Shown piece after piece: positions 6,244-57,731 of a DNA stretch of 64,000 nt. The notes beneath the pieces were generated by a model, which saw nothing but the letters and a program-made list of their open reading frames with translations, searched no databases and had not been told where the DNA came from. The translations under genes were made by a program, and so were the position numbers. Every line of letters starts with the position of its first letter. Position 1 is the first letter of the stretch. Location of the stretch: contig CALVEN010000001.1 of NCBI GenBank assembly GCA_944326585.1, positions 186,001-250,000 on the forward strand. The letters are read 5' to 3'. The stretch is from Candidatus Gastranaerophilales bacterium. Its GTDB lineage: Bacteria > Cyanobacteriota > Vampirovibrionia > Gastranaerophilales > Gastranaerophilaceae.

Positions 6244-7104
6244 TTATTTAGGCAAACAGTCCCAATAACCTTTTGTATTATCCTCAGGACATTTGTCATG
6301 CACTGCATACCAGCTGCAGCCAATTCCGTTGGCAGCCTGGTTTGAGTCTTTTCTGCATGGATATCCCTTTTGTTCCGCTACGGCTATACATGAATAGTAA
6401 TAGTTTCCTTTTGATGGATATTTTTCTTCACATACGGCAATTGCAGCATCCCGATCATCATCAGTATATATTGAACTTTGCTTTATAGGCTGGAGATAAT
6501 CATTATTGTCCATGTGGAAAGAAAATATATCGTGCCCTAAAGCGTTGGGACCTTTATCAGGACCGTTCATGTCAAATGTAAAACCGAGCTTGGCGCTGTT
6601 AATTACCATATCGTAACAGCTTCCGTCAGCAAGTAGTTTTCCAGGGGTAGCTATGGAACCTATATCAGTGTACGCTGTATTTTTTTTATTATATGTAACT
6701 ACGTCATTTTTATATTCACAGGTACCAACCTGTTTAAAATACTTGTTAAAAATGGCAAAACATTCCTCTTTATTCAGATATTCAAATTTTCCTGCATTCG
6801 CGTCTATAGTCTTTAATAAAGTGCAATATGATTTGAAATTACCGTTAGTTTCACTTTTGGCAAGTAATACAGCCTGCGAAATTTCAGCATATTTTTTTGT
6901 AAACTGAGTTTTTAAAACTTTTTTTTGATAATTTGCCACAAGCGTCGGAATAGTCATAGCGGCAACTATTCCAATAATTCCAAGGGTAATTAAGACTTCG
7001 GCTATGGTAAAAGCGGGAATTGGAAAATTATTTTCGAGACCATAGCGGAGCCGGAGGTGAGAGCGTCGTCGAGAAAATAATTTTCCAATTCCCGACAAAC
7101 TCAA
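6244..7104 (-). CDS. prepilin-like protein, family B leader, reading frame broken at a C9 tract
   Basis: This is a type IV pilin-like protein with a prepilin-peptidase site (PAFTIAEVLITLGIIG, then IVAAMTIPTLV) and a C-terminal domain with the local signature NGPDKGPNALGHDIFSF and many cysteines. The open frame as read begins at a TTG at 7104. The likely start is the ATG at 7169, which has AAGGAG 8 nt upstream and a promoter at 7191-7219, but a nine-C tract (7121-7129) throws it out of frame and it stops at 7113. One added base joins the two frames without any stop. A 21-bp inverted repeat (7015-7035 and 7073-7093) sits in the leader just before the hydrophobic segment. Cell-surface fibre or secretion pseudopilin is inferred from the family. 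Confidence 0.8.
   Translation of the reverse strand: MSLSGIGKLFSRRRSHLRLRYGLENNFPIPAFTIAEVLITLGIIGIVAAMTIPTLVANYQKKVLKTQFTKKYAEISQAVLLAKSETNGNFKSYCTLLKTIDANAGKFEYLNKEECFAIFNKYFKQVGTCEYKNDVVTYNKKNTAYTDIGSIATPGKLLADGSCYDMVINSAKLGFTFDMNGPDKGPNALGHDIFSFHMDNNDYLQPIKQSSIYTDDDRDAAIAVCEEKYPSKGNYYYSCIAVAEQKGYPCRKDSNQAANGIGCSWYAVHDKCPEDNTKGYWDCLPK
7015..7093. repeat. 21-bp perfect inverted repeat inside the prepilin leader
   Basis: Arms 7015-7035 and 7073-7093 are exact reverse complements and would make a long hairpin in DNA or mRNA, with a 37-base GC-richer loop. It lies between the C9 tract and the prepilin cleavage site and keeps the pilin frame open. It looks like a small palindromic insertion. 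Confidence 0.85.
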
Positions 7105-7112
7105 GTCCAGTG

Positions 7113-7169
7113 CTAATCTCGGGGGGGGGCGACTATCTGAACCGCTTTTCGTGCAACCTTTTTCAACAT
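7113..7169 (-). other. short out-of-frame leader ORF of the 6244-7104 prepilin
   Basis: This 18-codon frame starts at ATG 7169, reads MLKKVARKAVQIVAPPRD and stops at TAG 7113-7115 because of the nine-C tract. Its first 14 codons closely match the leader at 53999. With ten C it would continue as APPPRLALDLSLSG into the pilin. Confidence 0.7.
7121..7129. repeat. nine-base homopolymer (G9 on + strand, C9 in the gene)
   Basis: Nine consecutive G are read on the plus strand, followed by CGACT. This is one of four copies of the 14-mer GGGGGGGGGCGACT, here antisense to its gene. It is the point where the leader and pilin frames separate. Confidence 0.95.
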
Positions 7170-23735: not shown

Positions 23736-23783
23736 ATGGAAAACAAAAGGTTTGAAAATAACGGGGGGGGGCGACTCTCCTAA
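23736..23783 (+). other. short out-of-frame leader ORF (family A) of the 23999-24868 prepilin
   Basis: The frame starts at ATG 23736, reads MENKRFENNGGGRLS and stops at TAA 23781-23783. If the nine-G tract had ten bases it would read NNGGGATLLSRQDKGFDG and continue for 88 codons without a stop to the ATG at 23999 and on through the pilin. Confidence 0.7.
23763..23771 (+). repeat. nine-base G tract
   Basis: Nine G followed by CGACTCTCCTAAGTAGA. The same 26 bases (tract plus 17) occur at 35664. The tract is the frame junction of the prepilin leader. Confidence 0.95.
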
Positions 23784-23998: not shown

Positions 23999-24868
23999 AT
24001 GATGAATTATAATTTAGAGATCCTGAAACGAGTTCAGGATGACACAAAACCTCACGCCACTCACCTCACTCACTTCACTCACGCAAAACGTGCCGCCTTC
24101 ACTCTGGCAGAAGTTTTAATAACCTTAGCCGTAATCGGTATAGTGGCAGCTATGACAATTCCGACTTTGATTAGTAATTATCAGGAAAAACAAACAATAT
24201 CCAAATTGCAAAAGGTTTATGCAACTTTGAAAAATGCTTTTGAAATGGGAAAAGTGCAACATGGCGATTATGAAACCTGGTCGTGGAATCAGATTCCTAA
24301 TGAGAACGCGGAAAAAATAAGTTATTTTTGGGAAACGTATGTATTTCCGCATTTAAAAGTCACAAAAAAATGTTTTCCTGTTTCAAGTGAATGTGTAGAA
24401 CCAATGTATCTTCTTTCCGGTTCAAGTCTTTCAAATACTTCATCTACGCGCGGTGCTTTTATTTTAGAGGATGGTACATCAGTATATACCTGGGCAAGCA
24501 GCGGTGATTTTTTCCCGCATATTTTTGTGTTTGCGGATATAAACGGTAAGGCAAAACCAAATATTGTCGGTAAAGATATATTTGTAATGTATTTTTCTCC
24601 TCAAAATCCCGGCAATAAGTTGGGTTCATTGGATGACGACGGGAATTTTGTAGATTCCGGGAAATTGATGACAAATGCTTATGGGTTAAGCTTTTACGGT
24701 GATATGGACGGTGTAACTGTTGAGGATTTAATGGACTCCAATTTTATCGTACAAAATGTAGAGGGAGCGAATAATAAAATGGGTTGTTCCAGCGGTAGTT
24801 TAGGATATGCCTGCGGAGCCGCCATAAAATTAAACGGATGGAAATTCCCGGACGGGTATCCTGACTAG
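23999..24868 (+). CDS. prepilin-like protein, family A leader, frame broken at a G9 tract
   Basis: The prepilin segment is AAFTLAEVLITLAVIG then IVAAMTIPTLI, with cleavage predicted before Phe34 of this frame. The globular part has ADINGKAKPNIVGKDIFVM and a Cys-containing C terminus ending in GWKFPDGYPD. The ATG at 23999 has no ribosome binding site. The expressed start is more likely ATG 23736, which has promoter and ribosome binding site but is out of frame by one base at the G9 tract. The leader before the pilin includes a copy of a palindromic repeat (24017-24044) and short TCAC-rich tandem repeats (about 24049-24080), all translated without a stop. Confidence 0.8.
   Translation: MMNYNLEILKRVQDDTKPHATHLTHFTHAKRAAFTLAEVLITLAVIGIVAAMTIPTLISNYQEKQTISKLQKVYATLKNAFEMGKVQHGDYETWSWNQIPNENAEKISYFWETYVFPHLKVTKKCFPVSSECVEPMYLLSGSSLSNTSSTRGAFILEDGTSVYTWASSGDFFPHIFVFADINGKAKPNIVGKDIFVMYFSPQNPGNKLGSLDDDGNFVDSGKLMTNAYGLSFYGDMDGVTVEDLMDSNFIVQNVEGANNKMGCSSGSLGYACGAAIKLNGWKFPDGYPD
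24017..24044. repeat. REP-like 28-base palindromic repeat within prepilin leader
   Basis: The sequence differs at one base from the repeat at 57375-57402 that flanks the GIY-YIG gene. It forms a hairpin (ATCCTGAA with TTCAGGAT) and is read in frame as part of the pilin leader. Confidence 0.85.
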
Positions 24869-35619: not shown

Positions 35620-35645
35620 AAACCCAAAACAAGGAGAGTGTTAAT

Positions 35646-35684
35646 ATGACTAGTTTCAATAACGGGGGGGGGCGACTCTCCTAA
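35646..35684 (+). other. short out-of-frame leader ORF (family A) of the 35864-36547 prepilin
   Basis: The frame from ATG 35646 reads MTSFNNGGGRLS and stops at TAA 35682-35684. With one more G it would read NNGGGATLLSRNSKGF and continue without a stop for 73 codons to 35864 and through the pilin. Confidence 0.7.
35664..35672 (+). repeat. nine-base G tract
   Basis: Nine G followed by CGACTCTCCTAAGTAGA, identical to the site at 23763. It is the frame junction of the prepilin leader. Confidence 0.95.
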
Positions 35685-35713
35685 GTAGAAATAGCAAGGG
35701 TTTTGCGGATATC

Positions 35714-35813
35714 TGTCATCCTGAGGCGAAGCCGAAGGATCTGCGGAGATTCTTCTTTTCCTCTCGCAAAACAATACTCAATTGTTTTGCTCGGCAGAGA
35801 GCTCAGAATGACA
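35714..35813. repeat. MITE-like element inside the prepilin leader
   Basis: A 100-base unit is bounded by near-perfect terminal repeats, TGTCATCCTGAG at the left and CTCAGAATGACA at the right, and contains an inner hairpin (GCAAAACAA with TTGTTTTGC, 35766-35790). The ends resemble the repeat flanking the GIY-YIG gene at 57375. It adds about 33 codons to the pilin leader without a stop. Confidence 0.75.
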
Positions 35814-35863
35814 TTAAAGAACTTAACGACTTTAAAAAGAAAGCCGGTGCTACGCACGTAGAC

Positions 35864-36547
35864 ATGTCAGGCAACATTCGTTGTGCCGCGTTTACTCTGG
35901 CAGAGGTTTTGATAACCCTTGCCATAATCGGCATTGTGGCTGCCATGACAATTCCTACTTTGGTGTCAAAATTTCAGGACAAAGCGCTTGTGTCTCAATT
36001 TAAAAAGACATATTCTTTATTAAATCAAGCGCTGCAGCTTACTAATTATCAAAATGGTGTTGAATATAAATGTTATACAAATAAACCTGAATCAGGGTCA
36101 CAGAATTATTATGAGTATTCGCAGTGTCGTGAATTCAGGGATACTTTTTTCAAAAATTTAAAATATGTAAAAAAAGAGATTGTTAATAGCTGGCCGTATA
36201 AATCAAAAGAAGAAGTTTTGGCTCAGGGTGGCGGTATAACGGGGGCAACTTGTTCATTTGCTATACTCCCAAATACATACAAATATTATTTGCAAGACGG
36301 TAGTATTATTTATTGGTATGTAGCCGTCGGTTCTTCTCATTCAGCATTTATTACTGTGGATGTAAACGGAGATAAAGGACCAAATAAATGGGGTTATGAT
36401 GTTTTTTATCTGACACCGACAAAAAGAAAAAACGGTTCTATAAGGATATACGAAGCGATTTGTACTATCTGGGAAAATGGCGGCAAAAGAGCATTTAATA
36501 TATTAAATGATATTGATGTAGTAAATGATGACTGGTTGCCTGATTAA
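35864..36547 (+). CDS. prepilin-like protein, family A leader, frame broken at a G9 tract
   Basis: The prepilin segment is CAAFTLAEVLITLAIIG then IVAAMTIPTLV, starting at residue 8 of this frame. The globular part has VDVNGDKGPNKWGYDVFYL and ends in DDWLPD. The ATG at 35864 has no ribosome binding site; ATG 35646, with promoter and ribosome binding site, is the likely start but lies one base out of frame at the G9 tract. The in-between leader contains a 100-base palindromic element and is stop-free in the pilin frame. The function is inferred as a pilus or pseudopilus subunit. Confidence 0.8.
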   Translation: MSGNIRCAAFTLAEVLITLAIIGIVAAMTIPTLVSKFQDKALVSQFKKTYSLLNQALQLTNYQNGVEYKCYTNKPESGSQNYYEYSQCREFRDTFFKNLKYVKKEIVNSWPYKSKEEVLAQGGGITGATCSFAILPNTYKYYLQDGSIIYWYVAVGSSHSAFITVDVNGDKGPNKWGYDVFYLTPTKRKNGSIRIYEAICTIWENGGKRAFNILNDIDVVNDDWLPD

Positions 36548-53949: not shown

Positions 53950-53999
53950 CGGGGGGGGGCGACTATCTGAACCGCTTTTTTAGTGACCTTTTCCAACAT
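53937..53999 (-). other. short out-of-frame leader ORF of the 53233-53949 prepilin
   Basis: The frame from ATG 53999 reads MLEKVTKKAVQIVAPPRCTD and stops at TAG 53937-53939. It is nearly the same peptide as at 7169 and has the same promoter and ribosome binding site layout. Confidence 0.7.
53951..53959. repeat. nine-base homopolymer (G9 on + strand, C9 in the gene)
   Basis: Nine G then CGACTATCTGAACCGC on the plus strand, the same as at 7121. It is antisense to the gene and marks the frame junction. Confidence 0.95.
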
Positions 54000-55805: not shown

Positions 55806-57384
55806 TAATAAAACAACAAGTGTATTGAAAGCGGCATGGCTTATTGCTGTGGTTACTGTTTTCAGCAAACTCATAGGGTTTATCAGAGATGTTGTAATCG
55901 CGAATTATTACGGCACTTCCATGGTATCTGATGCTTATTTTTATGCATATCAAATTCCCGCGCTGGCAATAATTTTATTGGGCGGCGTAGGAGGACCTTT
56001 CCACAGTGCAACAGTTGCCGTATTTTCAAAACTTATACCGAATTTGCGCGAAAAACCTCAGGAAGAAGTCAAAAAGTTGTTTTCAACTTTTATGACAACA
56101 ACGATAATTTTCTTCGCGATTTTGGCTTTATTATGCTATTTCTTTGCAACACCTATAATGAATTTGATAGTATCCGGCGGAAGCCCCGAACTTGTTCAGC
56201 TTGCGGCGGAACATTTAAGAATTATGTCGCCCGTATTGATTATAGGCGGAATTGTCGGTATTTATTACGGAATTCTTGTAACTTACCGGTATTTTATGCT
56301 GCCGAATTTGTCGCCTATTGTTATGAGTCTTGTAATTATCGTTATGGTAATGACTGCAAGAAGCGACAACGCAGGTGTAATTCTGGCATGGGCAACTACA
56401 ATCGGTGCGGTTTTACAGCTGGTTTTACAATATCCGAAAATCAGACAGCTGGGGTTTAAGTTTAAACCGAATTTGGATGTTTTAAATAATGTTCAGTTCA
56501 AAAATATTTGTGAATTATTGTTTCCTGCGGTATTAAGCTCGACCGTCGGACAGGTGCATATTTATGTGGATATGTTTTTTGCATCATCATTGAATGAGGG
56601 TGTTTGGACGGCAATAGGTTATGCCAACAGAGTTTTCCAATTCCCTGTCGGAATTCTGGTAACTGCGTTTCTGGTTCCGTTATTTCCGATTTTTTCAAGA
56701 CTTGTAGCGGACGGGGATATGCAGGGAATAAAAACATATTTTAATAAAGGTGTCGGTGTTTTATTTTTCGGGGCTATACCGATAATTATAGGCATTCTGG
56801 TTCTTGGAACGGACGGTGTAAGGCTTATATTTGAACGCGGTGCGTTTGATGAGAGGGCTACGTTTATGGTGACGGAAGCCTTGTGGTTTTTGTCATTTTC
56901 TATTATTCCGTATGTGTTCCGCGACAGTATAACCCGTGTTTATTATTCGTTTAATGATTCCGCAACCCCTTTTATGATTGCGTTTTCTTCAATTGTTTTG
57001 AAGGTGTTTTTGAATATCCTTTTGATAAATATATTACATTTCGGAATAGGCGGGATTACCCTTTCAACTTCACTTGTGACATTATTTAACGCTTGTATGC
57101 TCGGGATTTTGATGTCTAAAAAAATTAAAATGGACTATGGAGTTTTGTTTAAAAATCTTTTGAAAATGTGTATTGCGGGTTTGATTACGTTTATTTTGTG
57201 TCTTGCGGCAGCTATTGCGTTTGACAAATTCATTGAGCTACCGAAATATATTTTTGAAATTGTGAAAATAACAATTGTCGGAGTTATATGCCTTGGAACA
57301 TACATCTGGCTAAACCTGTTATTAAAAATGGATTATGCAAAAGAATTGTTTGACAGAGTATATAGTAAACTAAGGAGATCCTGA
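55789..57384 (+). CDS. murJ: lipid II flippase MurJ
   Basis: MurJ (MviN) moves lipid II across the inner membrane. The 531-residue protein has about 14 hydrophobic helices and the family N terminus FSKLIGFIRDVVIANYYGTS, with the conserved Arg and Asp of MOP flippases. PFHSATVAVFSKLIP and GIYYGILVTYRYFMLPNLSPI are also typical. Its start lies inside the SpoIID gene, showing translational coupling. A REP-like repeat touches its stop codon (57375). Confidence 0.94.
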   Translation: MTDYSDNKTTSVLKAAWLIAVVTVFSKLIGFIRDVVIANYYGTSMVSDAYFYAYQIPALAIILLGGVGGPFHSATVAVFSKLIPNLREKPQEEVKKLFSTFMTTTIIFFAILALLCYFFATPIMNLIVSGGSPELVQLAAEHLRIMSPVLIIGGIVGIYYGILVTYRYFMLPNLSPIVMSLVIIVMVMTARSDNAGVILAWATTIGAVLQLVLQYPKIRQLGFKFKPNLDVLNNVQFKNICELLFPAVLSSTVGQVHIYVDMFFASSLNEGVWTAIGYANRVFQFPVGILVTAFLVPLFPIFSRLVADGDMQGIKTYFNKGVGVLFFGAIPIIIGILVLGTDGVRLIFERGAFDERATFMVTEALWFLSFSIIPYVFRDSITRVYYSFNDSATPFMIAFSSIVLKVFLNILLINILHFGIGGITLSTSLVTLFNACMLGILMSKKIKMDYGVLFKNLLKMCIAGLITFILCLAAAIAFDKFIELPKYIFEIVKITIVGVICLGTYIWLNLLLKMDYAKELFDRVYSKLRRS

Positions 57385-57731
57385 AACAAGTTCAGGATGA
57401 CAGAGGTCTGAATGCCGAATCAGTATTATGTATACATATTAACAAATAAAATTAATACGGTTTTTTATATAGGTGTAACGTCAAATCTTATAAAACGAGT
57501 ATATGAACATAAGCAGAAATTTGTTGAAGGTTTTACTGAAATGTATAATGTTGACAAACTCGTATATTTTGAATGTACAAATGATATCGAAAGCGCAATT
57601 AAACGTGAAAAACAGTTAAAAAATTGGCATAGAGATTGGAAAATCAATTTAATAAAAGAAAAAAATCCATTATTCAAAGACCTATATGATGATATAATTT
57701 AATTGTCATCCTGAACTTGTTTCAGGATCTC
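57375..57731. mobile_element. GIY-YIG gene enclosed by 28-bp perfect inverted repeats
   Basis: Positions 57375-57402 and 57704-57731 are exact reverse complements of 28 bases (core ATCCTGAAACAAGTTCAGGAT). Each is itself a palindrome able to form a hairpin. They enclose only the 291-base GIY-YIG gene. One-mismatch and related copies without the gene are at 24017 and 35714. The layout is like a small autonomous element with its non-autonomous copies; mobility is inferred. Confidence 0.6.
57412..57702 (+). CDS. GIY-YIG nuclease-domain protein
   Basis: This 96-residue protein is a single GIY-YIG domain: YYVYILTNKINTVFYIGVTS carries the two Tyr-containing signatures, LIKRVYEHK the conserved Arg and His, and the Glu-rich IESAIKREKQLKNWHRDWK the end of the domain. 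It resembles the UPF0213/YhbQ group. The stop codon lies 1 base before the right inverted repeat and the ATG 9 bases after the left one. It probably acts on the flanking hairpins, by analogy with REP-associated enzymes; this is inference. Confidence 0.88.
   Translation: MPNQYYVYILTNKINTVFYIGVTSNLIKRVYEHKQKFVEGFTEMYNVDKLVYFECTNDIESAIKREKQLKNWHRDWKINLIKEKNPLFKDLYDDII

Follow-up and report, generated by a model that had tools for sequence, protein, structure and literature searches.

A palindromic element of 100 nucleotides lies at 35714–35813 (+) inside the leader of a prepilin gene and in the frame of the pilin, which raises the question of how such an element came to be carried within a coding region and whether it serves any purpose there. 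The window analyzed here is a 64,000-nucleotide stretch, C1:186001–250000, of the 1.70-Mb, 16-contig genome of a Candidatus Gastranaerophilales bacterium.

The prepilin gene and its homopolymeric tract

In the gene that carries the element, a Shine–Dalgarno-like AAGGAG (35631–35636, +) is followed by the start codon (35646–35648, +) of a short coding stretch, ATG-ACT-AGT-TTC-AAT-AAC-G9, encoding MTSFNN ahead of a tract of nine G residues (35664–35672, +). As assembled, the tract is in the OFF state: the start frame meets TAA directly after it and closes at once (MTSFNNGGGRLS-stop), and a shift of +1 or −2 is needed. With ten or seven G residues, the frame runs through the leader (35673–35890, +), in which the pilin frame is open throughout, into the mature pilin FTLAEVLITLAIIG (35891–36547, +, including the stop codon). 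The class III prepilin N-terminal methylation and cleavage motif is present, with PF07963 (26.4 bits) and TIGR02532 (22.5 bits) both above their cut-offs.

Three further prepilin leaders of the window bear such tracts. The second contains a G9 tract (23763–23771, +) and a REP-like palindrome, GAGATCCTGAAACGAGTTCAGGATGACA, at 24017–24044 (+), across which the pilin frame is open (EILKRVQDD); the third contains a C9 tract on the coding strand (7121–7129, −) and an inverted repeat at 7015–7093 (−); and the fourth, with a C9 tract at 53951–53959 (−), is short and lacks a palindrome. The first-pass annotation had reported both additional palindromes, and each was found in the sequence, the 21-bp arms of the inverted repeat being perfect. 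It had also contrasted palindromes in three of the four tract-bearing leaders with none in the four other prepilin leaders of the window. These counts hold, but the connection to the tract itself does not: the other four leaders have only 7–15 open codons, so the contrast mostly reflects leader length. A tract-specific link was accordingly dropped, most leaders without a tract having fewer than 50 open codons, and the palindromes are tied to long leaders rather than to the tract as such.

Approximately 60 prepilins were identified in the host genome, 37 of whose leaders carry a G/C homopolymer, and 37 of the 43 listed G/C tracts of at least 8 residues fall in prepilin leaders. Among the remaining listed tracts, one lies beside a divergent pilin and one heads an orphan leader (L125, C1:393302), in which a G12 tract and REP repeats are present with no prepilin recognized behind them. 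Within the same genus, species G009, G011 and G012 hold 71–82 prepilins each, most of those sampled being tract-bearing, and tracts are also present in other genera of the family. A Shine–Dalgarno sequence and an ATG precede the tract in nearly all leaders, and G9 is the dominant tract length in four species. Among the 124 leaders across the genus with a clear start, 22 tracts are in frame and the others require a shift, of +1 in 91 cases and of +2 in 11, with homopolymer lengths taken as assembled from one assembly per species. One G9 tract, in species G013 (L373), was first taken as in frame and was computed to be out of frame. In a few pairs with near-identical flanks, the tracts differ in length (11/10 and 10/12), and one relative has C11 in frame versus C10 out of frame. 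Judged from these sequences, the tracts are likely phase-variable contingency loci. In the assemblies most of them are out of frame, and translation can then reach the pilin only through a change of the tract or slippage.

By the latter route, transcriptional slippage or ribosomal frameshifting would get past the homopolymer, with no switch through slippage of the DNA, and expression would be low but constant. This would account for the 91 of 124 tracts that need exactly +1, for the mere 22 in frame and for the dominance of G9 across four species. We regard it as unlikely, albeit the weightiest of the alternatives to the readings adopted here, as the tract lengths that vary between near-identical flanks resemble those of known contingency loci. 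In Campylobacter and Neisseria, poly-G contingency loci have their tracts within the 5′ portion of the coding sequence of surface-protein genes, and a wrong frame leads to an early end of translation. The present loci are similar in that G/C tracts of 7–13 residues lie in the 5′ coding part and translation soon ends when they are out of frame; they differ in that the switch precedes a long neutral leader and recurs in dozens of prepilins per genome. A search of the open literature found nothing joining Gastranaerophilales with phase variation, and papers on Melainabacteria pilins were off topic by title or abstract.

Structure of the composite element

The element is present exactly where it had been described, its ends being TGTCATCCTGAG (35714–35725) and CTCAGAATGACA (35802–35813), with an inner 10-bp hairpin, GCAAAACAAT/ATTGTTTTGC, at 35766–35790. 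It is stop-free in the pilin frame (CHPEAKPKDLRRFFFSSRKTILNCFARQRAQND). The 100 nucleotides fold at −38.2 kcal/mol, whereas shuffled sequences average −24.9 (z −4.3), and none of 200 shuffles folded as well. A hairpin masking the ribosome-binding site around the tract was also considered and dropped, the fold there being weak (z −1.3).

The first-pass annotation had assigned the element to the MITE or REP type. The type was right, but the single element resolves into two nested ones of different families. The outer part consists of two CGTC/TGTC-type REPs in inverted order, with TGTC at both outer ends; the first unit, TGTC-ATCCTGAGGCGAAGCCGAAGGAT-CT (35714–35742, +), has copies of 28–29 nt across the genome. 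Nested inside is a segment (35756–35800, +) containing the inner hairpin (35760–35799, +). In an alignment with species G011, this segment is replaced by 6 nt, a net difference of 39 nt; although the length of the whole element is not divisible by three, the part that varies between species thus corresponds to exactly 13 codons.

Genome-wide, the element has 42 matches, 9 of which lie in prepilin leaders, and all 9 are oriented like the pilin. As the leaders make up less than 1% of the genome, this location exceeds chance. Outside prepilins, TGTCATCCTGAG units also form evenly spaced arrays at C8:36554–36886, C8:47684–47882 and C12:24215–24579, with a spacing of approximately 85–168 bp.

CGTC-type REPs carry a terminal CGTC, often replaced by TGTC or CCTC, and most, though not all, have tails that fit CCA (PMC3733652). 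The present repeats resemble them in their TGTC or CGTC end, inverted dimers and some intragenic copies. The copy at 57704, ATCCTGAA-CTTGT-TTCAGGAT, fits the AT-starting stem of 8–9 bp with a loop of 4–5 nt, having an 8-bp stem and a 5-nt loop, and the stem of the first unit of the element has two mismatches. They differ in that the CCA tail is missing, being CT or CTC here, that the host belongs to the Gastranaerophilales, and that they bracket GIY-YIG genes.

The inner hairpin points to another family. The genome contains a single RAYT gene, C9:339–869 (NF047646, 143.9 bits against a cut-off of 80), which is the only Y1 transposase found in it, and this gene is flanked by two full copies of the inner hairpin upstream and one partial copy downstream, all in the same orientation. 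The GTAG tag was not found in 35756–35801. Because this tag is absent and the flanking copies are direct, we regard the inner hairpin as RAYT-associated rather than as a classical GTAG REP. The copies beside the only RAYT gene recall RAYT-associated REPs and REPINs (PMC2817692, PMC3116915), from which the hairpin differs in lacking GTAG, in its direct rather than inverted flanks and in its few copies.

Leaders with an open frame and an unconstrained sequence

In the 37 tract-bearing leaders of the host genome (10,689 nt), the pilin frame contains 4 stops in 3,541 codons, whereas the remaining frames have 334 and 302. All but one of these leaders (36/37) are fully open from the tract to the cleavage site, with peptides of up to approximately 200 residues; leaders containing a stop number 1 of 37 here and 6 of 40 in G012. 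From their sequence, the leaders look translated. The opposing view, that they are untranslated 5′ regions with the pilin starting at an internal ATG (35864) and the open frame being incidental, could draw on that in-frame ATG, 27 nt ahead of the mature pilin, and on the majority of tracts that are out of frame as assembled. We consider it the least probable of all the alternatives: 4 stops against 302–334 in the other frames cannot be incidental, and position 35864 lacks the Shine–Dalgarno sequence that nearly all leaders have, together with an ATG, ahead of the tract.

The substitutions in the leaders are spread evenly over codon positions. Mismatches at the first, second and third positions number 9,736:10,165:9,892 over all pairs, which are not independent because the leaders are mutually homologous, and 133:123:125 over 45 disjoint pairs, which reduce this dependence without abolishing it; with repeats masked, the comparison rests on 115 counts (31:45:39). 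The corresponding values are 554:380:1,186 for pilin bodies and 4,658:1,135:26,714 for the N-terminal helix. The pN/pS ratio of leaders is 0.82, or 0.98 over all pairs, versus 0.11–0.12 for pilin bodies. The strong constraint on the pilin bodies shows that copies out of frame are not dead genes. Most simply read, the data mean that a leader must stay open while its sequence is irrelevant, as expected if it were removed by prepilin peptidase, although the neutral pattern could partly date from the existence of the repeats outside leaders.

These results bear on the possibility that the leader peptide is functional and that the palindrome benefits the gene as a peptide segment or as an RNA hairpin, which might act in translational control of the pilin. 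The strong fold of the element RNA (z −4.3) and the retention of long leaders, up to approximately 200 codons, in four species speak for such a role. The amino-acid sequence of the leaders is unconstrained, the reading frame of one and the same repeat varies among leaders (200 of 2,573 alignments are out of register), and the element is missing from orthologues of the pilin, all of which makes this explanation very improbable. No sign was found that the palindrome has a function within a leader whose amino-acid sequence appears to evolve neutrally.

Accumulation of repeats in leaders

DNA repeated elsewhere in a 400-kb sample of genome stretches with rough ORF calls accounts for 61% of leader sequence, 17% of intergenic sequence and 2.7% of coding sequence. 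The repeats are thus enriched in these leaders, and the equal frequency in all regions that the first-pass annotation had named as evidence against its proposal was not found. Among leaders of at least 60 nt, 30 of 35 carry repeats of three named families. The enrichment concerns repeat families and not palindromes in general, since perfect inverted repeats are about as common in leaders as in intergenic regions (45% versus 29% for arms of at least 10 bp; 13% versus 16% for at least 12 bp). In leaders, the TGA-containing sense frame of GTCAT-type repeats is used at only 2 of 95 sites, so insertions are seemingly retained only where the frame stays open.

Rickettsia palindromic elements (RPEs), palindromes of approximately 150 bp held in frame inside ORFs (reviewed in PMC10969869), offer a parallel for a palindrome in frame within a protein-coding gene. 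A family link may run through the CGTC type, to which RPE-4 and RPE-6 belong (PMC3733652). The two cases differ in that palindromes here collect in one gene class, the prepilin leaders, where the peptide is neutral and probably discarded, whereas in Rickettsia they occupy unrelated genes.

Exchange of leaders between genes and species

Leaders with and without the element occur in related species, a comparison that the earlier annotation had proposed. The window leader is 99% identical to one in G011 that precedes an unrelated pilin, the bodies of the two pilins sharing 23% identity. Between AACG9 and the first pilin codon, the two leaders differ by one base and the nested hairpin (45 nt versus 6 nt). 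The glyA gene, which adjoins the window pilin, is 84% identical between the host species and G011, so the leader moved recently. Orthologues of the pilin itself in G011 and G004, likewise followed by glyA, have leaders of approximately 90–100 nt without the element. More broadly, many gene pairs with unrelated bodies have leader stretches that are 95–100% alike, and because these near-identical stretches often end approximately 68 nt into the pilin helix, exchange of leaders by recombination is suggested. A separate prepilin pair, L073 and L328, from species G000 and G011, is 99.8% identical over 630 nt of leader and pilin and was likely transferred whole and recently.

Long leader stretches common to paralogues would also be produced if the repeats in leaders were due only to duplication of pilin genes together with their leaders, and not to insertion of mobile repeats. 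This is improbable, given that these repeats are also found outside leaders and bracket GIY-YIG, 23S-rRNA-intervening-sequence protein (23S-IVP) and RAYT genes, and that leaders alike in all else can have or lack the nested hairpin.

Nuclease genes bracketed by repeats

A GIY-YIG nuclease gene in the window (57412–57702, +; PF01541, 60.9 bits) is bracketed by repeats of the class that forms the outer palindrome, CGTC-type REPs at 57377–57404 (−) and 57704–57731 (+), which form a 28-bp exact inverted repeat. Together with a second GIY-YIG gene, it has exact inverted CGTC-type brackets of 28–29 bp. Scanning the flanks of match coordinates for an exact inverted repeat of at least 12 on both sides identified 11 of 21 GIY-YIG genes over relatives, two of the 11 being near-identical orthologues, compared with 2 of 400 random places and 3 of 352 control ORFs. 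The repeats at the bracketed loci (57377–57731 in the window; L424; L427–L455 in relatives) are mostly of the CGTC type and end in TGTC or CGTC. Two of the scoring control ORFs encode a 23S-IVP and a DUF559 nuclease. Genes for these two proteins each have 23-bp inverted repeat brackets at L134:18181–18549 (−) and L148:12662–13030 (+), respectively. The repeat family at the 23S-IVP gene is also common in leaders (26/35).

GIY-YIG genes are thus associated with CGTC-type REPs, and we hypothesize that the nuclease mobilizes them. A tentative extension, which we hold to be possible but short of probable, is that CGTC-type REPs are non-autonomous partners of small GIY-YIG elements, with parallel pairs formed by one repeat family with 23S-IVP and another with DUF559, and that phase-switched prepilin leaders offer a translated safe harbor from which DNA is passed as cassettes between pilin genes and species.

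A probable neutral passenger in a probably discarded leader

The explanation that we favor, with a probability of roughly 0.8, is that a composite mobile palindrome persists here as a neutral passenger in a translated, discarded prepilin leader free of amino-acid constraint. A RAYT-type hairpin would have entered one REP of an inverted CGTC/TGTC-type pair, giving rise to the composite. Translation would start at the ATG just before the G/C tract and, at the right tract length, proceed through the leader into the pilin, after which prepilin peptidase would cleave before the FTLAEV helix. We propose that the leader is free of amino-acid constraint because the resulting peptide is discarded. Selection in the leader would then act only against stops in the pilin frame and shifts of it, and the approximately 36 leaders per genome would constitute a translated neutral zone in which REP-type repeats gather and are swapped between pilin genes.

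The locus represents a rare and clear-cut example of a long coding stretch that selection holds open while its amino acids show no visible constraint, and it explains how mobile palindromes can persist inside genes. The GIY-YIG nuclease becomes a candidate enzyme for CGTC-type REPs, for which a 2013 survey by Di Nocera found no dedicated transposase (PMC3733652). For the organisms themselves, the findings point to a large group of prepilins under tract control in gut Gastranaerophilales, of which the open literature searched contains no description.
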